NCBI GenBank assembly: GCA_944389585.1
Contig: CALXMW010000006.1
Coordinates: 1-64,000, forward strand
Direction of reading: 5' to 3'
DNA: 64,000 nt
From: an uncultured Kiritimatiellota bacterium
Lineage (GTDB): Bacteria > Verrucomicrobiota > Kiritimatiellia > RFP12 > DVOR01
A program made the translations under genes and the position numbers. Shown here in pieces: positions 26,205 through 41,769 of this stretch. Numbering within the stretch: position 1 is the stretch's first letter; every line of letters starts with the position of its first letter. The notes under the pieces are model-generated. The model was not told where the DNA came from and made no database searches. It saw only the letters and a list, made by a program, of their open reading frames with translations.

Positions 26205-29200
26205 TCACTCGTCGCAGACCAGGCGGAGGGTGACGTTGTGGACGCGCTGCCACTGCGGATAGGGCGTGCGGAGGGCGGAGCGGGAGAAGCGGGGGAGGAG
26301 ATCCCAGGCGCCGCCGCGGCAGACGACCTCCTCGTCGGGGCCGGGCGGCTCTGAGCTCGCGGGGTAGGGACGGTAGGGCGAGGCCGTCCACTCGGCGGCG
26401 TTGCCGATCATGTCCTTGAGCCCGAAGGCGTTGGGCTGGTGTTTCCCGACCTGCCCTAGCACCATCTGGCCGTCGTCGCGGCGCATGTCGCGGAGCATGT
26501 AGTGCAGGGTCTGGCGCTGATGGGGGAGTTTGTCGAGGGCTTTGTCGGCGAGGTTGGCGTAGGGGGCGAAGTCGTCGTCCTCGCCGCCCCAGGGGAGGGC
26601 GGTGGCCGTGCCGGCGCGGGCGGCCCACTCCCATTCGGTCTCGGTGGGGAGGCGGAAGCGGCGCCCGGTCTGTTCGGAGAGCCACGCGCAGTAGGCCTGG
26701 GCCTCGCGCCAGGAGAGGCGGACGGCGGGGAAGTCGGGGCTGTCCATGAGGCTGGCGCCGGGGGCGGTGTGGTCTTTGCCGAGCCAGTCGGCGTAGCCGT
26801 TGTAGTGGTCGGGCTTCCAGGCGAGGAGGTTGCGGAGGGGGAGCTCGACCTCGGCCATGAGGAAGGGCTTCTCGACGCGGGCGATGTGCGGGGTCTCGTC
26901 GGGATAGCCTTGGGCGTCGCCCATCACGAAGGCGCCGGCGGGGATTTTGCGGAAGGTGAGGTCGCCGCCGGGGAGGCGGAGGGTGACGGCCTCGCCGGGC
27001 TTGGCCTGGAAGGGCCAGCCGGGCAGGGTGGGGGCGGCGGGGCGCGGCGCCTCGGCGGCGGGGGGCTGGAAGGCGACCTTGGCGAGGTCGGCCTTGGCCT
27101 GCTCAAAGCCGTAGGCGTCGGCCTCGAGGGCGGGGTCGGGATTGGAGACCTGGCAGGCTTTGTTCCACGCCTCGCGGCGGGCCTTGGATTGGCGCATACG
27201 TTCGAGCTGCATCTGGGGGCCTTTGATGCCGATCCAGTTGCGGTGGAACTCGTTGGCCCAGTTGAGGGCGAAGTCGGTCCACGTGCCCCAGAAGGGGGCG
27301 TTGAGGTCGATCCAGGTGTAAAGCGTGCGCCATTCGGCGTCGTCGAGGGTGACGCCGTGGTGGCCTTTGCGGAGGAGCTGGATGAGCGGGGAGGTGTTGG
27401 CGGCGTATTCGCCGGGGTTGAGGAGGTGGTTGTCGCTCTCGGGGCCCGGGCGGCGGACGTAGGGTTTGAGGTCGTGGTAGGAGCGGGTGAAGGCGCCGGC
27501 GCCGCCGGGGTTGAAGCCGTCGCGGTAGGGGAGGATGGTGGGGGCAAGGCTGGCGAGGTTGGGGCGGCGGCCCCGGAGGTTTTGCTTGCCGTAGAGGCCC
27601 TCGCGCGTCCCGTCGGTGTCGGTGGTCTGGTCGTTGTGGCAGCCGACGCAGCGGCGGTTGAGGATGGGCTGGACCTCGCGCATGAAGCTCCAGGCGGGGC
27701 CGGGGGAATCGGGCGGCGTGAGGGCGGCGGGGGCGCCGGGGAGGGGCGGGACGTCGTAGATGGAGTTGGCGCTTTCGTGGCAGCCGGTGCAGGAGACGTG
27801 CTCGCCGGGCTGGCCGACGAGCCAGGAACGCATGAGCTGGAGCGCCTGGCCGCGGGCGTCGAGCGGCTGGAGGGAGAGGGGGATGTGGGCGGGCGCGGTG
27901 AAGAAGACCGAGCCGTCGGGGTTGACGGGGACGGTGCCGAGGAGGTACTTCATGTCCCAGCTCGACTCGGTGCCGACGCCTTCGTGGGAGCCGACCTTGT
28001 TGTAGGCGTAGTGATAGGCGAAGACGCGCAGGGCCTTGACGGCGCCGCGCGGGACGCCGGCGAGGCCGGGGCCGTTGTAGATGTCGGCGACGTGGACGGT
28101 GCAGGTGCGCGCGCCGGGCCGGACGAAGTCGGGGAGGACGGGCGGGACGGGGCGGCGCTCGACGCGGATGGGCTCGCAGAGGGCCGCGCCCTCCATCTGG
28201 GCCAACGGGATGAGGTTGTCGAAGACGTCCGCCAGATAGATGCCCCAGAGGTCGTCCTTGGAAGGGCGCATGGAGACGAGGAAGAACTTGCCCGCGTCGC
28301 CACGCCCCGGGCCGGGGGCGAGCGGGAAGGGCGAGAGGAAGCGGGGCCAGTCGCCGGCGTAGAGGTAGTCCTCGACGCGCTCGGGGATGGGCTTGCCGAA
28401 GCCGGGGATCATCTGGACGGCGCCGGCCTTCTCGGCGCGCCCCTTGGAGACGTCGAAGAGGGCGAGGCGGCCGGATTTGGGGGCGTGGTGCCCGGTGGCG
28501 ACGCAGACGAAGCGGCCGGGCTGTCCGGGGATGGGCTTGGGGTCGCCGTAGTGGTTGGGCCAGAAGCCGTTGGAGCCGTAGTAGGCCAGCTGGCGGGTGC
28601 CGTCGGGGCGCATGGTCATGACGTTGCGGCTGAAGAAGTGCGCCAGGTCGCAGTATTCCCAGCGGACGTACATCACCTGCCCGTCCTCCATCACGGTGGG
28701 CGACCAATTGGAGTCCTGGTCGAAGGTGAGGCGGTCGAGTTTCCCCGTCTTGGGGTCGAGGCGATAGGTGTTTGTCATGGACAGGCGCCCCGACTCGCAG
28801 GGCAGCCCCTGCTCGGCGGCGGTGGCGGTGACGAGGGGGCGGCCGTCGGGCAGCCAGCAGCCGTCGCCGACGTCAAAATCCGCCTTGGCGGGGGAGAGGG
28901 GGCGCGGCTCGGAGCCGTCGAGGCGCAGTTCCCAAAGCTTCAGGCGCCCGCCGTCCGCCGGGTCTTTGCGGACGTAGCAGACCTTGTCGGCGCCCCAGTG
29001 CAGATCCACGCAGGAGAGGGTGGCGCCGGGCGAGTCGAGCAAGGTGGCGACGGTGGGGGCGGGGTTGCCGAAGTCGGAAAGGCGCAGCAGTCTCGAGGGG
29101 ATGTTGCGGTTGGCCTCCACCTGGTTGTAGCAGGCCATGCTGGGCTGCCCGGGGGCGTTGTGGCGGCGGGCGTTCGGCCCCATCTCGTAGCGCACGGCGA

Positions 29201-29528
29201 GGATCTCCAGCCCTTGCAGGCCGGGGCGGGCGAGGACGGCGCGGCGGAGGTCACGCAGGAGGGCGTCGGCGGGCGCCTCGTCGCCGCGCTTGGCGAGGGC
29301 GTCGCGCGCGGCTTGGCGGCGTTCGGGCAGGGCGTCGACGAAGGCGCGGAGCGCGGCGCTCCCGGCCCCCACCCCGTAGACGGCCTCCCAATCGTCGGCC
29401 AGACGGGTGAGGGCGGCGGGGTCGATGCGGTCGAGCGCGCCGGCCAGGCAGCGCTGTTGCGCGGTCTGCTCGGCGAAAAGCGGGGCGGCCACGGCAAGGG
29501 CCAGGATGAACGGGAGGATGGTTCGCAT
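26205..29528 (-). CDS. HzsA-like di-heme protein with C-terminal FGE-sulfatase domain
   Basis: An 1107-aa exported protein (MRTILPFILALAVAAPLFAE). The long central part resembles the HzsA-related family of Planctomycetes and Verrucomicrobia, with beta-propeller-like segments (DQDSNWSPTVMEDGQVMYVR) and two haem-c attachment motifs, CTGCH near residue 577 and CVGCH near 624. Residues about 850-1107 form a formylglycine-generating/sulfatase-modifying domain (RKIPAGAFVMGDAQGYPDE, FRLPTETEWEWAARAG, DMIGNAAEW, CRGGAWD). The ATG at 29528 follows AAAGGAGAAACCC. Enzymatic role is unknown; despite the name no hydrazine chemistry is implied. It appears intact although surrounded by gene remnants. Confidence 0.8.
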   Translation of the reverse strand: MRTILPFILALAVAAPLFAEQTAQQRCLAGALDRIDPAALTRLADDWEAVYGVGAGSAALRAFVDALPERRQAARDALAKRGDEAPADALLRDLRRAVLARPGLQGLEILAVRYEMGPNARRHNAPGQPSMACYNQVEANRNIPSRLLRLSDFGNPAPTVATLLDSPGATLSCVDLHWGADKVCYVRKDPADGGRLKLWELRLDGSEPRPLSPAKADFDVGDGCWLPDGRPLVTATAAEQGLPCESGRLSMTNTYRLDPKTGKLDRLTFDQDSNWSPTVMEDGQVMYVRWEYCDLAHFFSRNVMTMRPDGTRQLAYYGSNGFWPNHYGDPKPIPGQPGRFVCVATGHHAPKSGRLALFDVSKGRAEKAGAVQMIPGFGKPIPERVEDYLYAGDWPRFLSPFPLAPGPGRGDAGKFFLVSMRPSKDDLWGIYLADVFDNLIPLAQMEGAALCEPIRVERRPVPPVLPDFVRPGARTCTVHVADIYNGPGLAGVPRGAVKALRVFAYHYAYNKVGSHEGVGTESSWDMKYLLGTVPVNPDGSVFFTAPAHIPLSLQPLDARGQALQLMRSWLVGQPGEHVSCTGCHESANSIYDVPPLPGAPAALTPPDSPGPAWSFMREVQPILNRRCVGCHNDQTTDTDGTREGLYGKQNLRGRRPNLASLAPTILPYRDGFNPGGAGAFTRSYHDLKPYVRRPGPESDNHLLNPGEYAANTSPLIQLLRKGHHGVTLDDAEWRTLYTWIDLNAPFWGTWTDFALNWANEFHRNWIGIKGPQMQLERMRQSKARREAWNKACQVSNPDPALEADAYGFEQAKADLAKVAFQPPAAEAPRPAAPTLPGWPFQAKPGEAVTLRLPGGDLTFRKIPAGAFVMGDAQGYPDETPHIARVEKPFLMAEVELPLRNLLAWKPDHYNGYADWLGKDHTAPGASLMDSPDFPAVRLSWREAQAYCAWLSEQTGRRFRLPTETEWEWAARAGTATALPWGGEDDDFAPYANLADKALDKLPHQRQTLHYMLRDMRRDDGQMVLGQVGKHQPNAFGLKDMIGNAAEWTASPYRPYPASSEPPGPDEEVVCRGGAWDLLPRFSRSALRTPYPQWQRVHNVTLRLVCDE

Positions 29529-29944
29529 GGGTTTCTCCTTTGATGTCGCGCCTTTCCCAAAACGATAACACGGCGAATGCGGGGATGGGTGAGGGTGTCC
29601 ACCGATCGGCGTGTCTGCGTTGCGTTGTATCCAGCCCCGATGCCGTGGCGGCCAGAGGGGATACTTTCCCTCCTCAGCTGCGCGCCACCACATCACGCAT
29701 TCCTCCCCCAGCACGTGCACGCCCTCGAGGCTCCCGGCCTTGCCCAGGCCAAGCTCATCGACGCCACCCCCATCGGCCTCAACGTCCGCTCCACCCGGCG
29801 ACGCTTGGCGGCACAAGGGGAAAATGGAGGGAACGGGCCGTCATCCCTCCTCCGGTAAACAACGGCCATAGATGCGCTCTTGGCGGGTCCAAAGACGAAT
29901 CAGCGGGATTTTCTCCTCCGCCGCGAATTCCGCCACCTGGCTGA
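29529..29944. other. intergenic region with a uvrA-like remnant
   Basis: About 415 bp between the HzsA-like start and IS30 copy 1. Apart from the uvrA-like piece at 29691-29795 I see no gene, terminator or promoter that can be supported. Base composition is mixed and frames are short. Confidence 0.5.
29691..29795 (+). pseudogene. second uvrA-like fragment
   Basis: The readable peptide includes HVHALEAPGLAQAKL followed by IDATPIGLNVRST. In UvrA this segment (D-x-x-PIG-x-x-x-RS) follows the second P-loop and precedes the ATY motif. The match is lost right after RST, so it is a remnant. It is on the same strand and in the expected order relative to the piece at 25235-25790, as if one uvrA gene had been broken and the HzsA-like gene now sits between its parts. 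Confidence 0.42.
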
Positions 29945-29968: not shown

Positions 29969-31074
29969 TTAGGCAATAGCTGAAAAAGCTTCATTGGCGG
30001 AGAGTCCTTTCAGGGAAGTGGTGCGGGAGATGTGGTTGATGAGGGCTTCGACGCGGGCGATCGTGCGGGCGCTGACGGTCGAGAAGTCGGTGCCTTTGCC
30101 GAGGTGACGTCGGAGTTGGCGGTTGAAGTTTTCGACGGAGCCTTTCTGCCAGGCGCTGTAGGCGTAGGTGTAGTAGACGGGGGCGCGGACGATGCGTTCG
30201 AGGGCGGCGGTGCAGAGGAACTCGCTCCCGTTGTCGGTGAGCAACGCCTTCATGGTCTTCAACTTCTTCTGGCGCATGAGTTTCTTGAGGGCGGCGCAGA
30301 CGGCTTCTTGGCTGATTTCGGGGAGTTTGACGGCGTAGGATTTGCGGGTCTGGCGTTCGGTGAGGGTGAGGAGGCCGCCCTTCCCGCCTCGACAGGAGTG
30401 GACGGTGTCCATTTCCCAGACGCCGAAGGTCTGTTGGCGGCAGAGAAGGGTTTCGGGCATGTCCAGGATGGAGTGGCCGGGGGGGGGCAGCGTTTGGCAA
30501 CGCGCCCTTTCCGCTCGGAGGGGTTGACGCGCTTGCGTTTGCCCTTTTCCGGCAGCCACGAGGCGTCCATCCCGGCGCAGGAGCGTCCTGCCGTGATGCG
30601 GTTGTAAATCGTTTTGACGCAAGGGATCCTCCCGTCCCACCCAGGCGCCTTCCCGAGGATCTCCGCGCGATTCTTGTCATCCCGAAGGGCCGCTTCCAAG
30701 TCCTTGAGGGCCGTCGTGGGGGCAATTTCTCCTTTGGGACTCATGAACGGCTTGAGCGCATGGAAGAAAGCCTCCGGGAACAGTTTGGCGTCGGCGTACC
30801 TTTGGCGTGCTTTGACGGCGTTGTCCTCGAGTTTCCGCATATCAAGCGGGAAGCGTTGGAGTTGTTTGTTTCCGAAGCGCGAAGGCAGACAGGTTTGGGC
30901 GCGGGTAATGATGTCGCGGAACGAACTGTCCGGGACGCTTAATCCCCGTGCGATCTGGCTGAGTGACCTAGGGTTCTTTCGGCACAGATTCCTTTCGTAT
31001 GCCTCAAACATTCTCCTGAGATCCGCCACTGAGTAGTGTTTGCCTCGCGTTTTCCCTGTGGTATCATTTCTCAT
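29969..31074 (-). pseudogene. IS30-family transposase with frameshift at a C9 tract
   Basis: The N-terminal frame starts MRNDTTGKTRGKHYS at 31074 (AAAGG upstream) and holds the helix-turn-helix region and VKTIYNRITAGRS. The C-terminal frame carries the DDE core: WEMDTVHSC, LLTDNGSEF and KGSVENFNRQLRRH. The two frames meet at a run of nine Cs on the coding strand (30487-30479), where one base must be gained or lost to read through. It is either inactivated, a sequencing error, or produced by slippage on the homopolymer. Without the shift, the N-terminal product stops after a nonsense tail. Confidence 0.75.
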
Positions 31075-31171
31075 GTCAGCGCCTTTCGGATGGTTGGTTT
31101 TACTTGCGCCATTATGCGCCTTTCCGGAAGGGCTGACATTTTCCCTTCCTTTCCCGTCCCGGTTCGCGGCC

Positions 31172-31189
31172 GGCCCCCCTAGGGGGGCC
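31172..31189. repeat. 18-bp perfect GC palindrome in IS30 copy 1
   Basis: GGCCCCCCTAGGGGGGCC lies about 100 bp upstream of the transposase start. IS30 copy 2 has a similar GC palindrome at 41037-41055 in the equivalent place. It may be a protective hairpin against read-through or a transposase site; function is unknown. Confidence 0.6.
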
Positions 31190-31269
31190 CTGGGGGCCTT
31201 TCGCTTCCTCTTGGAAAATCCACGGCCTAATCTTACAACGTGCCAGCACAATGCCGTCTGTTTTTTTGC

Positions 31270-31299
31270 TTGACAGGGAGGGAACAAGTCTTGTAGTAT
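31270..31299 (+). promoter_or_regulatory. outward-facing promoter at the IS30 copy 1 right end
   Basis: A consensus TTGACA (31270-31275) formed by the last bases of the IS end, an 18-bp spacer, and TAGTAT (31294-31299) in the flanking DNA. It points towards the structured leader and the 2470-aa protein gene at 31594. It looks like a hybrid promoter created by the insertion, but this is inference. Confidence 0.5.
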
Positions 31300-31305
31300 A
31301 GGGGC

Positions 31306-31542
31306 AGATAGCTTGAGGGCGCGTGTTCTGCCGGTTGGCGGGGGCGTGTTTCTCGGGCGCAGAATCGGTGCGTTTACGCATACATTCGTTTTAGAGGAAA
31401 CTACCACCTTCCCTAGCTTGAACGAGATGTATCGCGGAGTCGCGCTTGGGTATATCCCAGGCGTGTTTCTCTCCCGTTATGTTTCCAAGCACGGCTGTGG
31501 TAGGCCTCCTCTAAGGAACTTCGGGGGGAGGCACGCTTTTTT
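31306..31542 (+). ncRNA. structured leader RNA, attenuator-like
   Basis: About 240 nt that fold into several helices. TTCTGC (31325-31330) pairs with GCAGAA (31359-31364). TTAGAGGA (31391-31398) pairs with TCCTCTAA (31507-31514), continued by CTACCAC (31401-31407) with GTGGTAG (31497-31503). Inside are GCTTG/CAAGC, CGCG/CGCG and CTTGGG/CCCAGG hairpins. The 3' strand of the long stem overlaps the terminator stem at 31504-31532, so the two are mutually exclusive, as in riboswitches and attenuators. A 12-nt repeat, GGCGTGTTTCTC, occurs at 31343 and 31460. It matches no riboswitch class I know. Confidence 0.45.
31504..31542 (+). terminator. intrinsic terminator inside the leader of the BspA-like gene
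   Basis: GCCTCCTC (31504-31511) pairs with GGGGAGGC (31525-31532), followed by ACGC and six Ts (31537-31542). It lies 50 bp before the ATG at 31594, so it would stop transcripts before the coding region unless the alternative stem forms. Confidence 0.6.
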
Positions 31543-31593
31543 GTTGTCTCTCCGTTTCGTCGTTGGTGTGAAAACAGGGATTGGAGAACGGTC

Positions 31594-34500
31594 ATGAAGC
31601 GGTTTGTCTTTTGGATTTGGGCGCTGTGTGCGGCGGCGCCGGGGTTTGCCGATCAGGTAACCATTGATGGGGTCACGTGGACGTACAGCGTCCGCTCCAG
31701 GGAAGGGGCGTCGTATGCGGTGATTGAGGAGGCCAGCGGGGTACGGGGCGCGGTGACCGTGCCGGCAACGCTGGGCGGGGCGCCGGTCACTGAGCTTGAA
31801 ACCGGATTTCTCGGTATGAGCGGCGTCTTCTACGGATGCACCGAACTGACGGAGGTCCGCTGGGAGGAGGGGTGCGCGATCGAGAAGATCGGGGGGTATG
31901 CTTTCAGGGGGTGCACAAGCCTGACCGAGATCACGATCCCGCCTTCGGTGACGAAACTGGGAAACCAGGCCTTCAGAGGGTCGGGGCTGGAGACCGTCAC
32001 GATTCCGGGCACGGTGAAGACGCTGGGCGCAGAGGTCTTCGCGAAGTGCCCCGACCTGAAGACGGCTGTCTTTGAGGAGGGCGATGAGCTCTATGACGCG
32101 GATGTCGGAGACGGCCTGTTCGTCGCGTGTCCGGAATTGGAGACGGTGACGCTGAAACGGCTGCAGACGCTGAGCGATTCGTTTTTTCTCGACTGTCCGA
32201 AGCTGACGTCGGTGTCGCTGCCGACGACGCTGTGGGAGATCAAGGACGGGGCCTTCGGCCTCAGTCCGAACATTGCCTTCACGCTCGATGCCGGAGTGAC
32301 GAGATTCTCTGTCGAAAACGGATTGTTGCGCTCCGCGACGGGACTCTGTTATGTGCCGGGGAACCCCGAACGACTGGAAATCCCGGATGGGATTACCGAT
32401 ATTTCCGGCGGCATCTGCCGGGGAATGACGAACCTGCGCGAGGTGACCGTGCCCGACACGCTGAAATCCATCGGCACGTTTGCTTTCTACGGGTGTGCGT
32501 CGCTGGAGGAGGTCGATCTTTCGGGAACGCAGGTGACGATGTTGCCGGAGGGTGCCTTTGCGAATTGCCCCGCGCTGGCGTGGGTGCGCCTGCCGGCGAC
32601 GTTCGGGAGTTTCATGATGGATTCGACCTTCGCGTATTCCCCGAACGTGCGGTTTGAGGTGGCGGAAGCGTGCAAGAGTTTTTCCTCGGATGCGTTGGGC
32701 ACACTCTACGACAAGGACAAGACGGTGCTCTTCATCGGGCCCAATGTGGCAAGCTTTACGGTGCCCGAGACGGTGACGGCCATTGCACCTTATGCCTTCG
32801 ATGGACATACGGCGTTGACGTCCATCACCCTTCCGGCGAGCGTCAGAGACTTCGGGTATGATGTCTTCCGTGGGTGCACGAATCTGACGCCGGTGAACGG
32901 GCTCGTGCTTGATGCGGAGCAGACGACCGTGCTCGGGATTGACGCGGGAAAGACCGCGGTCGCCGCGGAAGATTTCCCGGAGACCGTCTGGCGCGTGGCC
33001 GATTACGCCTTTTATGAAAACACGTCTCTGCTCTCCGCCGCCTTCCCGTCGTGGGTAACCTCCATCGGGGCTTTCGCTTTTTACTATTGCGACAATCTGG
33101 GGAGCGTGACCTTCGCCGAGGGACTTGAGGAGATTCGGGACGGGGCCTTTTACAGTACCGGCATCGGCGGGGAACTCAATTTGCCGACCACGCTGACGGA
33201 TCTCGGGGATCTGGCGTTTGGAAATACGAATGTCATGGAGGTGAAGATGGGCGGCACGCCAGGGTTGCGCGATAATCCGAACCTGACCCTCGCGGGGAAC
33301 CCCTTTGCCGAGTGCTATGGCCTGCCTATCGATCCCGCGACGGGTGTCCGGTATGAGACCGCCATTGAGAACAATCCTCGTGTGGTTGTCGGCGTCGGCG
33401 GTGTGGTGGTGGACGACGCCGGCCAAGGGACCGAGGTTGAGGATATCCTGGTGGAGCATCTGGTGCTTCCGGAAAGTGTGCGCTATATCTGCGACGAAGG
33501 ACTCGACCTGTGCCCGGAGTGGAATAAGTTGGCGCTACTGCCGAAGACGATCGAAGTGCCGGGACCGATCTACCGCGTTGGCTCCGGCGCCATTCGGGAT
33601 GGCTACGGCCTGACTTCCATTACCTTTGATGGCGACGTGGGCGAGGTGGATACGAAGGCGTTCACTTGCCTTTCGGCCTTACAGTCGGTGACCTTCAAGG
33701 GTGACGTGGGCGTCGTTCGCGGCAATGTCTTTTGGGAGAGCCTCGGCGACCTAGGGGCTCTGGAAGGGGCGAGCTGTTCGTTGACCTTTGAGGGGAACGT
33801 CGGGACGATTGAGTCGCTTGCCTTCGATGGCAACGTTCTTTATGAGGATTGGGGTTATAACCCCTTGAAGGAGTATCTCACCTCGGTGACCTTCGGAGGG
33901 AGTGTCGGCTCCATTGGGGCGCGAGCCTTCCGCGGGCTCGCGGCCTTGCCGACGGTGACCTTCGGTGGGACGGTTGGGCCGATTGGGGACTGGGCCTTTT
34001 ATGGGTGTTCGTCCTTGCGGACGGTGACGGGCTGCAAGCCCGAGAGCCTCGGGGTCGGTGCCTTTTACGGGTGTTCAGCGCTGACGGGTGCCCCGGACTT
34101 GAGCCGTGTGGCCGAGGTGCCGATCGAGGCCTTCCGGGGGTGCACGGCCCTGACGGAGGTGACGCTGGCCGACGCCGTGACGCTCGGCGAGAACGCCTTT
34201 TACGGGTGTGCCAAGCTGACGGGCCTGAAGACCGCTTCCGGCGGTGATCCAACGGTGACGTTGGCGACTTTTGTCTTCTACGAATGCGCCGCGCTCACCG
34301 GTATCACGCTTGATCCGGCCACGACGGAGATCCCAAACTATGCCTTTTATGGATGCGAGGCCTTGACCGCCCTTGAGTGGCCGGAGACCCTCACGGCCAT
34401 CGGCTCCTCCGCCTTCCGCCTCACCGGCCTTACAGGTGAGCTGAACCTGCCCGCCTCGGTGAAGGAGATCGGCTCCTCCGCCTTCAGCCGCACCGGCCTC

Positions 34501-37500
34501 ACAGGTGAGCTGAATCTGCCCGCCTCGGTGAAGGAGATCGGCTCCTATGCCTTCAGCCACTGTGCCGACCTAACCAAGATTACGCTCAATTCCATCCCTT
34601 CCGGGATGTATGAGGCGTTTGACGGGTGCTCCGGCGTCACGGAGGTCGTCTATACGTGTGATGTGCCGGAGCTTCCGCGGGTGTGGGACGGCCTCACAGG
34701 CCTGACTTCCTTCACGGTGAACGGCGATATCGGCACGTCGGCGAATTATGCGCTCTCGGATTGCGACAGCTTGGAGACGATGACGGTGAAGGGCAATTGG
34801 GGGACCATCGCGGCCGGTACCTTCTACAACCTTGGCAAGTTCACGACGCTGACCGTCACGGGCACCGTCGGCGCCGTCGGCAACTCGGCCTTTATGGGGT
34901 GTACGGCGCTGACTTCGGTGCCAACAATCGGCGATGCGTTCCTTGAGGGAGCCATCGGCAACAATGCCTTCCAAAACTGCTCGAGCCTGGAATCCGTCAC
35001 GCTCGACCGCAACATCCGCGCCATCGGCAACTACGCCTTCCGTGACTGCACCAGTCTTAAGACCGTCTCGATCTTGGGCGATCTCCGCACGATTGGCACC
35101 TATGCCTTTTCGGGGTGCACGGCGCTGAACAATCTGACGCTGCCGACCTCGCTGGTCTCCATCGGCGACTACGCCTTCCAGAACTGCAACGCCTTCCCCA
35201 AAGATGAGAACTTTGTCTATTCCTCGGAGGCAAAAACGGCCATCTTGGATCGGGTCTCGACATCGGCGACGCTAGCTATCCCCGAGGGCGTCACCATGAT
35301 CGGCCCCAGCGCGTTCGCCTCGGAATACAATCTGACGTCGCTGACGTTGCCTTCGACCCTGAAGACCATCGCCAACAAGGCCTTCTATAATTGCAACAAG
35401 CTTACGGAGGTCACCATCCCGGCCGGTGTCGTGACCATCGGCGACTATGCCTTCCAGAGCTGTTCCAAGCTTGCGACGGTGACCTTTGAGCCGAAGAGCC
35501 GGCTGGCAACGATGGGCAAGGGAGCCTTCTACGGCTGCAGTGCGCTGACGGGCTTCGCCTTCCAGCCCGGGGTGACGGCCATCGCCGACAACCTCTTGGG
35601 CGGATGCGGCAAGCTGGCGACGGTGACCTTTGAGCCGGGCTTTGCGCCGGAGTCGATCGGGGCAAACGCCTTCAGCGGTTGCACGACGCTCTCCGCGCTG
35701 ACCATCCCCGAAAGCGTGACCGTCATCGGCGACTATGCCTTCCAGAACTGCGACGATTTGACGGAGATGGCCATCCCGGAATTGGTCACGGCCATCCCGG
35801 ACAACTGCTTCAACAACTGTGACGGCCTCACCGCCGTGACCTTCGGGGAGCAGGTCACGTCCATCGGAGCCTCCGCCTTCTATGGATGCACCAAGCTGAC
35901 CACGCTGCCGGCGGCGGATGCCGATGGCATCGTCATCCCGGAGACGGTGACCACCCTCGGCGAAAAGGCCTTTTATAATTGCAAGGCCGTGACGAAGGTT
36001 ACCTTGCCGGATGTCATCACCGAGATTCCCGAGTCGCTCTTCTATAGGTGTGCCGCGCTGAACACGGTCAAGCTGGGTTCGGCCGTGACGAAGATCGGCA
36101 CGAACGCCTTCAGCGGTTGCACGGCGCTGGAAAGCATTAACCTGCCCGACACGCTGACCACCTTGGGATCGTCGGCTTTCAGCGACAGCGGACTGACCTC
36201 CGTGACCCTGCCGGACGGACTGACGAAGCTGTCCTATTACGGGTTCTCCGGGTGCAAACGGCTCACCTCGGTGACGCTGAGCCCGGACACCGTCGCCCTC
36301 GACACGGGGACCTTTTACGGGTGTACGGCTCTCACGGCCATCACCCTGCCCGCGGGGGTCACGGAGATCCCTCAGGCCGCCTTCATGAACTGCACCGCGC
36401 TGGAGACCGTCACGCTGGAGGGGGTGCTGACCAAGATCGGCTATCAGGCTTTCAGCGGTTGCCCATCGCTCCGCTTCGCGATTCCAGAGACGGTCGTCTC
36501 CATCGGCGGACAGGCCTTCAAAGGGTGCGCGGCCCTTACGGAGATCAGCATCCCGGAGGGCGTCACGGAGCTGGCGGCGAATGTCTTCCAAGATTGCGAC
36601 GGCCTGACGGAAGTCACCATCCCGGCCACCGTCGGGAAGTTCAACGCGAGCGCCTTCGCGGGGTGCGACAACCTCACAACGGTGACGCTCGGCGGATCGC
36701 CCACCGCTGTGTCGGATTCGATGTTCGACGGCTGCACGGCGCTGACTGCCATTCATCTGCCGGACACCGTCACCTCCATCGGCGCCTCCGCCTTCCGGAA
36801 CTGCACGGCGCTCACCTCCATCGATATTCCCCCCCGCGTGACCAAGATCGGGACCTACGCCTTCCAAAAGTCCGGCCTGACCTCCGTCGTCGTGCCCGAC
36901 ACGGTGACCTCACTGGGGACTTATACCTTCCAGGGCTGCGCGGCGCTGACCTCGGCCACCGTCGGCGAGGGCGTCGCCACGATCGGCAACTACACCTTCG
37001 GCGACTGCACGGCGCTCACGAAGGTGACGCTGCCGGCCGACCTGAAGGAGATCGGAAGATCCGCCTTCTACGGATGCACGGCGCTCACGGCCATTGACAT
37101 TCCCTCCGGCGTGACCAAGGTCGGGAGCAACGCGTTTGAAAAGTCCGGTCTGATCGCCGCCGTCCTGCCCGACACCGTGACCTCGCTGGGAACCTATGCC
37201 TTCCAGAACAGCACGTCGCTGACTTCGGTGGATGTCGGCGCGAGGCTTACGAAGCTCGACACCCGCACTTTCTACGGATGCACGGCGCTCTCGGAGGTGA
37301 CGCTGCCGGCCGGCCTGAAGGAGATCGGGAGCAGCGCGTTTCAGGACTGCACGGCGCTTGATGCCATCACAATCCCCGAGGACGTAACCAAAATCGGGAG
37401 CAGCGCGTTCCAGGACTGCACGGCGCTCTCGGAAGTGACGCTGCCGGCCGGTCTGGAGGAGATCGGGAGCAGCGCGTTCCAGAACTGCACGGCGCTCTCG

Positions 37501-39006
37501 GCCATCGCAATCCCCGAGGGTGCGACCACCATCGGGAGCAGAGCGTTCCAAAATGCCGGCCTGACGTCCGTCTCGGTGCCCGGGTCGGTGACCTCGCTGG
37601 GGACGTACGTCTTCCAGGATTGCGCGGCGCTCACGTCCGCCGCCTTCGGCGAGGGCATCAACGCGATCCCCAATTACACGTTTGACGGATGCACGGCGCT
37701 CTCGGAGGTGACGCTACCGGCGACGCTGACGGAAATCGGAACCTACGCCTTCCAGAACTGCACATCGCTCACGGCCGCCGGTATACCTTCCAACGTGACC
37801 AAGATCGGAGGCTACGCATTCAAGAATTCCGGCCTGACCTCCGTCTCGGTACCCGGGTCGGTGACCTCAATGGGGACGTATGTCTTCCAGAATTGCACGG
37901 CGCTGACCTCGGCCGCCTTCGGCGAGGGCATCAACGCGATCCCCAATTACACGTTTTACGGATGCACGGCGCTCTCGAAGGTGACGCTGCCGGCGACGCT
38001 GACGGAAATCGGCGCTAACGCCTTCAACGGATGCACGGCGCTCACGGCCGTCACAATCCCCTCCGGCGTGACCAAGATCGGGAATTACGCCTTCCTGAAG
38101 TGCGGCCTGACGTCCGTCTTGGTGCCCGGGTCGGTGACCTCGCTGGGGATGTACGTCTTTCAGAATTGCACGGCGCTGACCTCGGCCACGCTCGGGGAAG
38201 GGATCACGGTCATCCCGAGCAGTACCTTCTCCGGGTGCACGGAGCTGGCGGCCGTCACGTTGCCGGACAGCGTGACCACCGTCAATTCCAACGCCTTCGG
38301 GAACTGCAGGAAACTGGTCTCGCTCACCATCCGGGGCGATGTGCCCACTTCGGTGAACAGCTACGCCTTCCCCACGGGGAATTATCTGGCCGAAGGCGCC
38401 ACGCTTTATTACCCGGCCGCGCAGGAAGCGGCGTGGAAGGCGGCGGCCGACGCGGACGGCAAATGGAAGGGCTTCACACTGGCCGTGCTCGCGGCCGTGG
38501 CCATGCCCAATGTCCCTGAGGGCGCGGCAGGTTACACCGACATGGCCGTGCTCGAGCGCCTTCAGTCCGCCGCCTTGAAGGCCGGCATCACCGACGGCAC
38601 GTTCGACGTCTTCCGCCAGAACAGCGACGGCACCGTGGTTCGGGAACTCCTCGCGCCGACGACCGTGGAGGATGCGCTGAACTGCTTTGCCGGGCTTGAG
38701 CCGGTGGCGGTCACGCTTGAGGACGGGACGGCCATGGTGGTCCTGCCCTATACCTTCGACGTCTGCGGCATCTCCGTCGAGGCGTCGGAGGTCGTCGTCA
38801 CGGTCAAGGTCGAGAGCGGCCTTCCCAAGATGCCCCTGACCTTCGCCGAGGGCATCGCCTATGCCATTGTGCCCACCACGGAGGGCACCGCGCCCGTCGT
38901 CATCGTACGGGAGGAAGTGGCCGGCGACACCGCCACGCTGGCGTTCGCCCCGCCGGAGGGACACTCCACCTACCTCTTCAAGGCGTCGGTTTCGCCTCTT
39001 CGGTAA
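31594..39006 (+). CDS. giant BspA-like leucine-rich repeat surface protein
   Basis: A 2470-aa exported protein (MKRFVFWIWALCAAAPGFADQ). Residues about 35-2310 are BspA/TpLRR-type (LRR_5) repeats of about 23 residues with the pattern IPxxVTxIGxxAFxxCxxLTxV. Parts of the 3' half have a higher-order period of 91 codons. The last ~150 residues form a separate beta-rich domain also found at the end of the protein at 17289. BspA-type proteins mediate adhesion to host proteins or other bacteria. The ATG at 31594 follows GGAGAACGGTC. Expression may be controlled by the leader and the IS-derived promoter upstream. GC content is lower than in neighbouring housekeeping genes. Confidence 0.88.
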   Translation: MKRFVFWIWALCAAAPGFADQVTIDGVTWTYSVRSREGASYAVIEEASGVRGAVTVPATLGGAPVTELETGFLGMSGVFYGCTELTEVRWEEGCAIEKIGGYAFRGCTSLTEITIPPSVTKLGNQAFRGSGLETVTIPGTVKTLGAEVFAKCPDLKTAVFEEGDELYDADVGDGLFVACPELETVTLKRLQTLSDSFFLDCPKLTSVSLPTTLWEIKDGAFGLSPNIAFTLDAGVTRFSVENGLLRSATGLCYVPGNPERLEIPDGITDISGGICRGMTNLREVTVPDTLKSIGTFAFYGCASLEEVDLSGTQVTMLPEGAFANCPALAWVRLPATFGSFMMDSTFAYSPNVRFEVAEACKSFSSDALGTLYDKDKTVLFIGPNVASFTVPETVTAIAPYAFDGHTALTSITLPASVRDFGYDVFRGCTNLTPVNGLVLDAEQTTVLGIDAGKTAVAAEDFPETVWRVADYAFYENTSLLSAAFPSWVTSIGAFAFYYCDNLGSVTFAEGLEEIRDGAFYSTGIGGELNLPTTLTDLGDLAFGNTNVMEVKMGGTPGLRDNPNLTLAGNPFAECYGLPIDPATGVRYETAIENNPRVVVGVGGVVVDDAGQGTEVEDILVEHLVLPESVRYICDEGLDLCPEWNKLALLPKTIEVPGPIYRVGSGAIRDGYGLTSITFDGDVGEVDTKAFTCLSALQSVTFKGDVGVVRGNVFWESLGDLGALEGASCSLTFEGNVGTIESLAFDGNVLYEDWGYNPLKEYLTSVTFGGSVGSIGARAFRGLAALPTVTFGGTVGPIGDWAFYGCSSLRTVTGCKPESLGVGAFYGCSALTGAPDLSRVAEVPIEAFRGCTALTEVTLADAVTLGENAFYGCAKLTGLKTASGGDPTVTLATFVFYECAALTGITLDPATTEIPNYAFYGCEALTALEWPETLTAIGSSAFRLTGLTGELNLPASVKEIGSSAFSRTGLTGELNLPASVKEIGSYAFSHCADLTKITLNSIPSGMYEAFDGCSGVTEVVYTCDVPELPRVWDGLTGLTSFTVNGDIGTSANYALSDCDSLETMTVKGNWGTIAAGTFYNLGKFTTLTVTGTVGAVGNSAFMGCTALTSVPTIGDAFLEGAIGNNAFQNCSSLESVTLDRNIRAIGNYAFRDCTSLKTVSILGDLRTIGTYAFSGCTALNNLTLPTSLVSIGDYAFQNCNAFPKDENFVYSSEAKTAILDRVSTSATLAIPEGVTMIGPSAFASEYNLTSLTLPSTLKTIANKAFYNCNKLTEVTIPAGVVTIGDYAFQSCSKLATVTFEPKSRLATMGKGAFYGCSALTGFAFQPGVTAIADNLLGGCGKLATVTFEPGFAPESIGANAFSGCTTLSALTIPESVTVIGDYAFQNCDDLTEMAIPELVTAIPDNCFNNCDGLTAVTFGEQVTSIGASAFYGCTKLTTLPAADADGIVIPETVTTLGEKAFYNCKAVTKVTLPDVITEIPESLFYRCAALNTVKLGSAVTKIGTNAFSGCTALESINLPDTLTTLGSSAFSDSGLTSVTLPDGLTKLSYYGFSGCKRLTSVTLSPDTVALDTGTFYGCTALTAITLPAGVTEIPQAAFMNCTALETVTLEGVLTKIGYQAFSGCPSLRFAIPETVVSIGGQAFKGCAALTEISIPEGVTELAANVFQDCDGLTEVTIPATVGKFNASAFAGCDNLTTVTLGGSPTAVSDSMFDGCTALTAIHLPDTVTSIGASAFRNCTALTSIDIPPRVTKIGTYAFQKSGLTSVVVPDTVTSLGTYTFQGCAALTSATVGEGVATIGNYTFGDCTALTKVTLPADLKEIGRSAFYGCTALTAIDIPSGVTKVGSNAFEKSGLIAAVLPDTVTSLGTYAFQNSTSLTSVDVGARLTKLDTRTFYGCTALSEVTLPAGLKEIGSSAFQDCTALDAITIPEDVTKIGSSAFQDCTALSEVTLPAGLEEIGSSAFQNCTALSAIAIPEGATTIGSRAFQNAGLTSVSVPGSVTSLGTYVFQDCAALTSAAFGEGINAIPNYTFDGCTALSEVTLPATLTEIGTYAFQNCTSLTAAGIPSNVTKIGGYAFKNSGLTSVSVPGSVTSMGTYVFQNCTALTSAAFGEGINAIPNYTFYGCTALSKVTLPATLTEIGANAFNGCTALTAVTIPSGVTKIGNYAFLKCGLTSVLVPGSVTSLGMYVFQNCTALTSATLGEGITVIPSSTFSGCTELAAVTLPDSVTTVNSNAFGNCRKLVSLTIRGDVPTSVNSYAFPTGNYLAEGATLYYPAAQEAAWKAAADADGKWKGFTLAVLAAVAMPNVPEGAAGYTDMAVLERLQSAALKAGITDGTFDVFRQNSDGTVVRELLAPTTVEDALNCFAGLEPVAVTLEDGTAMVVLPYTFDVCGISVEASEVVVTVKVESGLPKMPLTFAEGIAYAIVPTTEGTAPVVIVREEVAGDTATLAFAPPEGHSTYLFKASVSPLR

Positions 39007-39896: not shown

Positions 39897-40961
39897 TTAG
39901 GAGACCTTTTTGGGGGTATGTGGGTAGTGGACGATGAGGCGATGGGTCTGTTTAAGCGCACGAGGGCTTAGCTTGGAAAAGTTGGTGGATTTGGGGCAGT
40001 AGAGGCGCAGGAGGCGGTACCGGTGGCGTTCAATGGAGCCTTTCTCCCAAGCACTGTAGGGATGGCAGTAGTAGATGGGGACATGAAGGAGGGCTTCAAG
40101 TGTGTCTTCATGGAGAAACTCCGAGCCATTATCGGTGAGAATCGTCTTAAGTTCGTGGCCGTTGGCGTAAAGGTCGCGGCGAAAACAACGAAGTGCGGAG
40201 GTCACGGAGGCTTGAGAAATGGTTGGAAGGGCATACATATAGAAGCGGCGGGGCGCTGTTGGATTGCCATGGTGGGGGTCGACAAGGGTGAGGATGCCAC
40301 CGCGGCCGCCGGAAGAATGGACGGTGTCCATCTGGAAATGTCCGGGCTCGGTGTGATGGCGCGCGGCAGGAGGAAGGTCGTCGATCATGTGCTTGGGGGC
40401 GTGGTTGCGGGGGACATCGGTGGAGGCGGGCTTGTGTTGGTTTTTCTTGTAACGCTTGTGGGTAAGAGGTCTGCCGCGTGCATCCTGAAGTTCGCCTTTG
40501 TCCATCAGGCGATAGACGGTGCTGCGACTGAGGAGATATGCGTTGGGTGATATCTCGTGAAGCACCTTCAATGTGTAGGTGACACTTTTCGTTTTGGAAT
40601 ATACCTTTGCAAAGTCTCGAGCAAAGAAGTTTGAGACCTTGCCGCGGGGCCCTTTGTTGGCGTTGCGTCTTCGGGTCTCTTCCACGGCAAACCCCGGGCT
40701 TAGGTCTAAGTACTCCCACCGCTTTTTGTCGGGAAGATACCACGTCAACCGCTTGGCGGTGGTTCCTTTTTTGAGGATGTATCTCACGGTTGAGGGTTTT
40801 TCCCCGATCATTCGCGCGAACGCTCTGACAGAGGGTCTGGCAACGGATTTCCGATACATGTTCCAATACCTAATGCACGCCTCCACGTCAGCCTTTCCGT
40901 TTTTGCGAATGCACGATTCTTGCGTTCGTTGCCTGCGAGAAGAAGTGATACACTGTTGCAC
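39897..40961 (-). CDS. IS30-family transposase, apparently intact
   Basis: A 354-aa transposase. The N-terminal region has VRAFARMIGEKPSTVRYIL (helix-turn-helix) and SRSTVYRLMDKGE. The DDE catalytic core is visible as FQMDTVHSSGG, ILTDNGSEFLHED and WEKGSIERHRYRLLR, with the expected spacing. I choose the GTG start at 40961 because AAGAAGGAACC lies 6-8 bp upstream; longer upstream readings pass through the GC palindrome and efp leader and lack family similarity. The C-terminus is HRLIVHYPHTPKKVS. It shares only the catalytic motifs with copy 1. Confidence 0.82.
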   Translation of the reverse strand: MQQCITSSRRQRTQESCIRKNGKADVEACIRYWNMYRKSVARPSVRAFARMIGEKPSTVRYILKKGTTAKRLTWYLPDKKRWEYLDLSPGFAVEETRRRNANKGPRGKVSNFFARDFAKVYSKTKSVTYTLKVLHEISPNAYLLSRSTVYRLMDKGELQDARGRPLTHKRYKKNQHKPASTDVPRNHAPKHMIDDLPPAARHHTEPGHFQMDTVHSSGGRGGILTLVDPHHGNPTAPRRFYMYALPTISQASVTSALRCFRRDLYANGHELKTILTDNGSEFLHEDTLEALLHVPIYYCHPYSAWEKGSIERHRYRLLRLYCPKSTNFSKLSPRALKQTHRLIVHYPHTPKKVS

Positions 40962-40984
40962 GCCGTCGGTTCCTTCTTTGTGTG

Positions 40985-41001
40985 TGGCACATAGTGTGCC
41001 A
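40985..41001. promoter_or_regulatory. dyad at the start of the IS30 copy 2 transposase
   Basis: TGGCACATAGTGTGCCA is a perfect 7-bp inverted repeat with a 3-nt centre, lying 25-40 bp before the transposase GTG. It could be an operator for autoregulation or a translation-blocking hairpin. Confidence 0.4.
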
Positions 41002-41137
41002 AGAAAGGCCGACGGCGTTTTTGCTTTTGGGCCGCGCCGCCCCCCGGGGGGGCGGGTTGCGGGGAGCCTTCTTTGCCTTATTGGATGCGTCATTACATTT
41101 TGCATCGATCGCATCCAAAGGAAACCCAAGCGCCGAT

Positions 41138-41167
41138 TTGACGGCCAAGGGGAGGATGCGCTATAGC
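41138..41167 (+). promoter_or_regulatory. possible efp promoter spanning the IS30 copy 2 end
   Basis: TTGACG (41138-41143), at the inferred IS right end, an 18-bp spacer, and TATAGC (41162-41167). The geometry repeats that seen at the right end of IS30 copy 1. The -10 is weak. Confidence 0.35.
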
Positions 41168-41204
41168 AATGTGGTTTACGACGCATAGACAAGGATAGAA
41201 TCCC

Positions 41205-41769
41205 ATGTATACCGCGCTCCGACCTCAAAAAAGGCCTCAAGATCATGTTCGAGGGCCAGCCCTGGATCATCACGGACTTTGATTTCTCCAAGCCCGGCAA
41301 GGGCCAGGCCATCTACAACTGCAAGCTGCGCAATATGCTCAACGGCTCGGGCAAGTCTTGCTCGTTCCGCTCGAACGATTGCTTTGAGAAGCCCGACTTG
41401 GCCCAGAAGCCCCTCGTCTATTCCTACGAGGACGCCGGCGAGTATGTCTTCAACGACGAGGATTACAACGAAATCCGCGTGGGTAAGGACGTCTTGGGCG
41501 ACAAGACCTACTTCTTGACCGATGGGCTGGAAGTCGACGCCCTCCTCTACGAGGACGAGGTGATCGACATCGAGCTGCCCTCCTTCATCGAGCGCAAGGT
41601 CATCAAGTGCGACCCCGGCGTGCGCGGCAACACCGCGGCCGGCAAGGTCACCAAGCCAGGTACCGTCGAGGGTGGCTATCAGTTGCCCGTGCCGCTCTTC
41701 ATCAACGAGGGCGACCTCATCCGCATCGACACCCGTACCGGTGAATACGCCGACCGCGTGGAAGCCTAA
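41205..41769 (+). pseudogene. efp: elongation factor P with a one-base frameshift at codon 5
   Basis: EF-P relieves ribosome stalling at polyproline. The expected start, ATG TAT ACC GCG at 41205 with AAGGA upstream, encodes MYTA; then one extra C at about 41217 shifts the frame. From 41218 the normal frame continues as SDLKKGLKIMFEGQPW, then SKPGKGQAIYNCKLRN with the conserved modifiable Lys region, and the two OB domains to EYADRVEA. Without correction only an internal start at 41245 (MFEGQ) remains, removing the first 13 residues of domain I. This is either a real mutation beside the IS or a sequence error. Otherwise the length (about 187 aa) is normal. Confidence 0.75.

Follow-up and report, generated by a model that had tools for sequence, protein, structure and literature searches.

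A probable attenuator-type leader RNA upstream of a BspA-like gene, with copies before unrelated genes in several phyla

We analysed 64,000 nt of contig CALXMW010000006.1 (positions 1–64,000, assembly GCA_944389585.1), hereafter the window, and all coordinates count from its first letter. On the forward strand, a structured region lies between a sigma70-like promoter and a gene encoding a BspA-like leucine-rich-repeat protein. ORFs with an integrase core domain (rve) flank this gene, both on the reverse strand, at 29969–30640 (E 8.9e-10) and at 39897–41312 (E 9.1e-4, below the cut-off); the gene, leader included, may therefore be bracketed by insertion elements. The features of the locus, with pairing frequencies from the alignments described below, are as follows.

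31270–31299, forward strand: sigma70-like promoter read from the sequence (TTGACA 31270–31275, 18-base spacer, TAGTAT 31294–31299)
31308–31541, forward: RNA element as delimited by covariance model R1 (196.2 bits, E 2.8e-43; the window copy is in the training set)
31311–31317 with 31352–31358, forward: 5' stem P0 (92.3% paired; 5/7 pairs changed on both sides)
31369–31380, forward: small hairpin TGCGT TT ACGCA, read from the sequence and seen in the alignment of genus copies
31385–31391 (TTCGTTT) with 31420–31427 (GAACGAGA), forward: pseudoknot A-A' (95.6% paired; 3/7 pairs changed on both sides)
31389–31398 with 31507–31515, forward: stem P1a (91.0% paired; 8/9 pairs changed on both sides)
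31401–31407 (CTACCAC) with 31497–31503 (GTGGTAG), forward: P1b (97.8% paired; 6/7 pairs changed on both sides)
31416–31420 with 31486–31490, forward: stem P2 (95.4% paired; 5/5 pairs changed on both sides)
31436–31450 with 31456–31470, forward: hairpin P3, proposed antiterminator, which holds strand B (94.0% paired)
31459–31474 with 31523–31538, forward: B-B', proposed terminator stem, adjoining the T-run and excluding P3 (97.1% paired in the genus)
about 31480–31486 (TGTTTC) with about 31514–31520 (AGGAACT), forward: pairing C-C' (91.4% paired; imperfect in the window copy)
31504–31509 with 31527–31532, forward: local terminator GCCTCC/GGAGGC (83.3% paired; weak covariation)
31522–31529 (B') with 31547–31554, forward: hairpin T2, spanning the T-run (swap test on 23 genus copies, 0/10000)
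31537–31542, forward: T6 tract, read from the sequence, where the sequence conservation of the family stops
31583–31586, forward: Shine-Dalgarno-like GGAG, within a predicted hairpin (31542–31597, −14.1 kcal/mol)
31594–39006, forward: BspA-like leucine-rich-repeat gene, 2470 aa (PF13306)

A first-pass annotation, made from the letters of this DNA, had described a long stem, a T6 tract and a repeated 12-mer here, and each of these is present: TTAGAGGA (31391–31398) is complementary to TCCTCTAA (31507–31514), and GGCGTGTTTCTC occurs at both 31343–31354 and 31460–31471. The repeat itself appears incidental, as only its second copy, which forms part of strand B, is conserved in the family alignment. 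In silico folding of 31300–31515 gave an energy of −94.5 kcal/mol (z −4.16), equalled by none of 200 shuffled sequences; for the longer segment 31300–31545, z was −3.46. Together with the covariation reported below, the shuffles rule out a chance hairpin as an account of the leader. Transcription probably starts near 31306, judging from the position of the promoter.

The same annotation had proposed that mutually exclusive structures precede the start codon, and had suggested a search for covariation. We ran this search and found compensatory changes in both folds. Covariance model R1 was built from 26 copies; alignment A1 omits L010, L016 and L028, which are near-duplicate or decayed copies, and L021 was removed from all alignments. 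Across the 26 copies, the 43 nested pairs of P0, P1a, P1b, P2 and P3 were 93.9% paired, and 29 of them had changed on both sides. Slid versions of the same pairs reached at most 51.0% paired and 19 double changes, and none of 500 shuffles scored as high. When all column pairs of these copies were scanned without guidance, the core helices ranked high, and the scan added B-B', C-C' and A-A'. A second set, 36 copies from the Prevotella group, gave comparable results. Here, B-B' ranked first in the unguided scan; B-B' and C-C' together were 92.7% paired, with 11/16 pairs changed on both sides; the equivalent of C-C' was 95.8% paired; and P1a, P3 and A-A' were 88.0% paired, with 16/25 pairs changed on both sides. 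P1b also covaries among 31 Prevotella-group model hits chosen without the P1b pattern, one of which is an antisense fragment.

To extend the comparison across phyla, we applied swap tests to 98 representatives. For B-B', 0 of 10000 permutations matched the observed mean. The same count was obtained for A-A' in a test region narrowed after the first result had been seen, the wide region being near noise (17.6 versus 16.6). Within the genus, B-B' varies little, 2/8 pairs having changed on both sides, and other groups therefore supply much of its support. Eight of the 98 representatives (L054, L070, L082, L100, L104, L114, L128 and L144) were dropped by hand from alignment A3 because the T-run was badly placed; this alignment is poor in its middle part, and no useful consensus fold was obtained from it. 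A kissing loop formed by the small hairpins 31396–31412 and 31493–31506 is a tentative reading of P1b; the corresponding test of the flanking stems gave 0/10000 across phyla and 442/10000 within the genus. Outside the short P1b flanks, which read GAA, GGC and GCC, few unpaired bases of the RNA are conserved. Hairpin T2 is weak in the Bacteroidota (swap test, 55/10000), and a hairpin that would mask the Shine-Dalgarno-like sequence (31542–31597) failed the swap test across copies (4240/10000).

The pairings centred on strand B are incompatible with one another. Both in the genus and in the Prevotella group, strand B forms the 3' arm of P3, and B' ends at the T-run. Among the 83 of 98 representatives with a B-B' score of at least 16 (the 15 scoring <16 were excluded), B bases were held by a local upstream arm with a mean probability >0.5 in 81 copies, and the mean over copies was 0.79. 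Control windows placed anywhere in the same interior gave 0.31, a lenient figure in that it includes 5' arms. With B in a local hairpin and B-B' conserved as well, strand B can pair with either of two conserved partners, each excluding the other. The covariation of P3 and B-B' thus bears out the proposal of a structured, attenuator-like leader with exclusive folds before the start codon. The terminator stem is another matter. The annotation had taken GCCTCC/GGAGGC followed by T6 as the terminator, and this local stem is present in the window; it is weakly conserved, and family-wide the stem adjoining the T-run is the long-range B-B' instead. The geometry of B-B' is unusual, with about 50 bases between B and B', and the stem would form a pseudoknot if P1 and P2 persist. 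As far as sequence can tell, this leader is probably of the attenuator kind: its two folds exclude each other, and one of the two places a stem ahead of the T-run.

How is the RNA placed relative to genes? In 102 of 108 copies, an ORF of at least 60 aa on the same strand starts at most 267 bases downstream. With equal room allowed on both sides, ORFs of this size were found downstream on the same strand in 86/93 copies and upstream in divergent orientation in 43/93; at 150 aa, the counts were 72/87 and 19/87, respectively. The motif TAnnTTTG, which we take to be a Bacteroidota promoter motif, lies upstream of the RNA in 60/82 Bacteroidota copies (4.4 expected); the spacer between T-run and gene contains it in 2/70 (1.2 expected). 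The Bacteroidota set for these counts consisted of all loci minus a hand-made list of others. The motif TTGAC-N16-20-TA...T, presumably recognized by sigma70, is present upstream of 15/26 non-Bacteroidota copies (0.1 expected from shuffles) and in the T-run-to-gene spacer of 0/25. Of the 98 representatives, 73 passed the T-run filter, and among these sequence conservation stops at the T-run. Five copies have their start codon immediately after the T-run, and the RNA there must therefore be 5' UTR; in the same five, B' overlaps the likely ribosome-binding site. The order promoter, RNA, T-run and gene suggests that leader and gene form a single transcription unit.

Copies of the leader are numerous and unevenly spread. 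A DNA search found a second copy in the window's own genome (74% identity, E 8.3e-18), and R1 gave 10 matches there, one of them antisense to a copy and one (L202) truncated; in the remaining matches that were read, the core is present and the T-run is altered in some. A DNA search at E 0.001 gave a match in 16 of 95 genomes from the genus and order. This count includes L021 (genome G076), which we rejected as a copy: it is a chance 33-base BLAST match within a coding region, and the core is absent. Related RNAs were detected by R1 in 16 of the 17 genomes of the window's genus. In genomes G001 and G011, the same BspA-like gene follows a decayed leader (L206 and L212, respectively) with a damaged 3' P1b arm and no remaining T-run, so that the switch may have been lost there.

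In public genomes at large, an exact pattern through both P1b arms was found in at least 116 stretches of species-representative genomes and in 3 stretches of viral contigs. Bacteroidales predominate in the record titles of the former; the other titles name Kiritimatiellota, Lentisphaeria, Victivallis vadensis, Verrucomicrobia, Phycisphaerae, Nitrospiraceae and Delongbacteria. Most carriers are metagenome bins, and isolated odd phyla could therefore be binning errors. In a phylum sample, 8/145 genomes carry the pattern, compared to 0 for a reversed control pattern. The genus of Bacteroides salyersiae gave 1/60 by the exact pattern, and that of Prevotella sp. tc2-28 gave 29/60 by model R2, which was built from Bacteroidota copies only. 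R2 also finds the window copy (31399–31541, E 2.1e-7) as its sole hit in the 64 kb; because no window copy went into it, this match links the Bacteroidota and the window's group independently. A phage collection yielded one partial match, and a plasmid collection yielded none. The distribution is patchy. Ten Bacteroidales loci (L045, L051, L067, L070, L075, L093, L106, L125, L132 and L155) form a subgroup that precedes methyltransferase and other genes, and several of its members have an additional CCC..GGG hairpin 3' of B'.

The first-pass annotation had tied the leader to the BspA-like gene, as a switch for that adhesin. We find it upstream of numerous unrelated genes across several phyla, a distribution that rules out a gene-specific attenuator. 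Of 102 downstream proteins, 96 were used after near-duplicates were omitted (set A4). These 96 contain 73 Pfam families, none in more than 5 proteins. The commonest are C5 DNA methylase (5), BspA-type repeats (4) and the InlB-type B-repeat (3); D12 methyltransferase, outer-membrane barrels and ResIII occur in two proteins each; and AIPR, type III modification and S-adenosylmethionine synthetase were each found in a single protein. In the last case (L053), the leader copy lies 166 bases upstream of the synthetase gene. The protein downstream of L017 has an SRA domain. A crude heuristic found a signal-peptide-like start in 44 of the 76 Bacteroidota proteins, and among the PADLOC families listed, the first 25 were all methyltransferase models. 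Six divergent copies in the genus (L200, L205, L210, L211, L213 and L214) precede one protein family with the shared stretch DEVLARFREEAQG, for which a family search gave no identification. Two phage contigs (L038 and L040) carry the RNA ahead of a two-gene cassette, and both run on the opposite strand from the adjacent tail tape-measure gene, an orientation common among cargo genes. Our best reading is that the RNA is used by accessory genes, namely those for surface proteins, restriction-modification and phage cargo. Such diversity of targets argues against a single metabolic pathway and favours either a general cue or a structured UTR that does not switch.

In keeping with the initial remark that no known class fits, Rfam searches gave no family. 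With Rfam 15 (4227 families) at the gathering cut-off, the window and 18 related loci yielded tRNAs only, and permissive searches of 31100–31700, of the Bacteroides salyersiae locus L112 and of the Prevotella locus L059 gave hits that were all far below cut-offs. No T-box model matched in the window, in 31100–31700 or in the 18 related loci. The closest likeness is to transcription-terminating riboswitches, especially orphan classes with diverse targets, which share the leader position, an aptamer-like pseudoknotted core, and an antiterminator and terminator that share one strand. Unlike these, the present class has no ligand assigned and no match in Rfam 15; its targets are as varied as surface proteins, restriction-modification and phage cargo, and its terminator stem pairs over a long range, perhaps as a pseudoknot. 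Target genes of a riboswitch usually belong to one pathway, a usual rather than strictly defining property; the Pfam counts above show no such common pathway. Amino-acid or uORF attenuators, ribosomal-protein leaders and T-box leaders likewise place alternative stems before a T-run, but the present class differs from them in its lack of a common pathway and of an Rfam match. GEMM (c-di-GMP) riboswitches occur several times in a genome, upstream of varied surface-related genes, and the leader resembles them in both respects; as far as the Rfam search tells, it is unrelated to them in sequence and fold. No description of this RNA was found in the accessible portions of the literature, including PMC2864571 and PMC11109978. 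PMC8040213 reports thousands of candidates in its supplements, and the leader may be among them, unnamed. The class matches no described family that we found and is apparently undescribed.

We propose that the region encodes a cis-acting 5' leader RNA of the attenuator class, present in several phyla, which switches between P3 and B-B' (probability about 0.7). Transcription would begin just upstream of the leader, and the nascent RNA would fold its core (P1a, P1b, P2, hairpin P3 and pseudoknot A-A'), of which P1a, P1b, P2 and A-A' may form the sensor. Strand B would then choose between the 5' arm of P3 and B', about 50 bases downstream and ending at the T-run. With P3 intact, B' would be free, polymerase would continue and the gene would be on; with B-B' paired, a terminator-like stem would adjoin the T-run and the gene would be off. 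In the window's genus, B' may alternatively pair behind the T-run to form T2, possibly an antiterminator hairpin. Since B' carries the likely ribosome-binding site in some copies, translation may be controlled too. Candidate triggers include a metabolite, a second messenger, a protein, the ribosome or temperature. Termination, the identity of the on state and the existence of a signal are, in this model, predictions. Because both states covary, the exact bases to mutate are given, and the model is directly testable in cultured Prevotella or Bacteroides salyersiae.

Could the RNA act in trans? An independent small RNA, transcribed from a promoter of its own and ended by a constitutive terminator, the gene being expressed by leaky read-through or from an unrecognised promoter, would account for the promoter and T-run, the stop in conservation at the T-run and the several copies per genome. 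Yet a same-strand gene stands behind nearly all copies, well above the divergent control, the spacer shows no promoter motif above expectation, five copies have the start codon directly on the T-run, and T2 extends past the T-run; we regard this explanation as improbable, although it is the strongest of the alternatives. Slightly less probable still is a structured 5' UTR that does not switch, an insulator or mRNA stabiliser that moves with accessory genes and whose alternative pairings reflect its folding pathway. The high diversity of the genes, the low counts in the phylum and Bacteroides samples (8/145 and 1/60) and the phage cargo position all suit such an element, but a single-state stabiliser needs no compensatory changes in both partners of B, and both are conserved with such changes.

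Two further explanations appear quite unlikely. The rve ORF upstream (29969–30640) and the dispersal of copies in the genome would suit a leader that belongs to a mobile element and has no connection with the gene; against this, the flanks and genes of the copies are unrelated, only the RNA and its promoter are common to them, and no terminal repeats were seen in a search that was not systematic. We give marginally less credence to a self-cleaving ribozyme or an RNase processing site separating leader from gene. The compact pseudoknotted fold in varied contexts suits such an RNA, but no Rfam ribozyme matched, the T-run is conserved at the 3' end and few unpaired bases are conserved beyond the short P1b flanks.

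Returning to the cis-acting attenuator, we tentatively extend it to a bolder idea, which we consider possible rather than probable: a new multi-phylum riboswitch class would sense a general cue, such as a second messenger or a signal related to phages or the envelope, and gate accessory genes for adhesins, secreted proteins, restriction-modification enzymes and phage cargo. A long-range stem pseudoknotted with the sensor would serve as its terminator, and the same strand would carry the ribosome-binding site in some copies. If this is true, an RNA switch precedes defence, surface and cargo genes in several phyla and some phages, which would suggest that accessory genes of gut and rumen bacteria respond to a common signal.

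Elsewhere in the window, a 1203-aa ORF on the reverse strand (26205–29816) carries an FGE-sulfatase domain in addition to a hydrazine-synthase-alpha-like middle domain.
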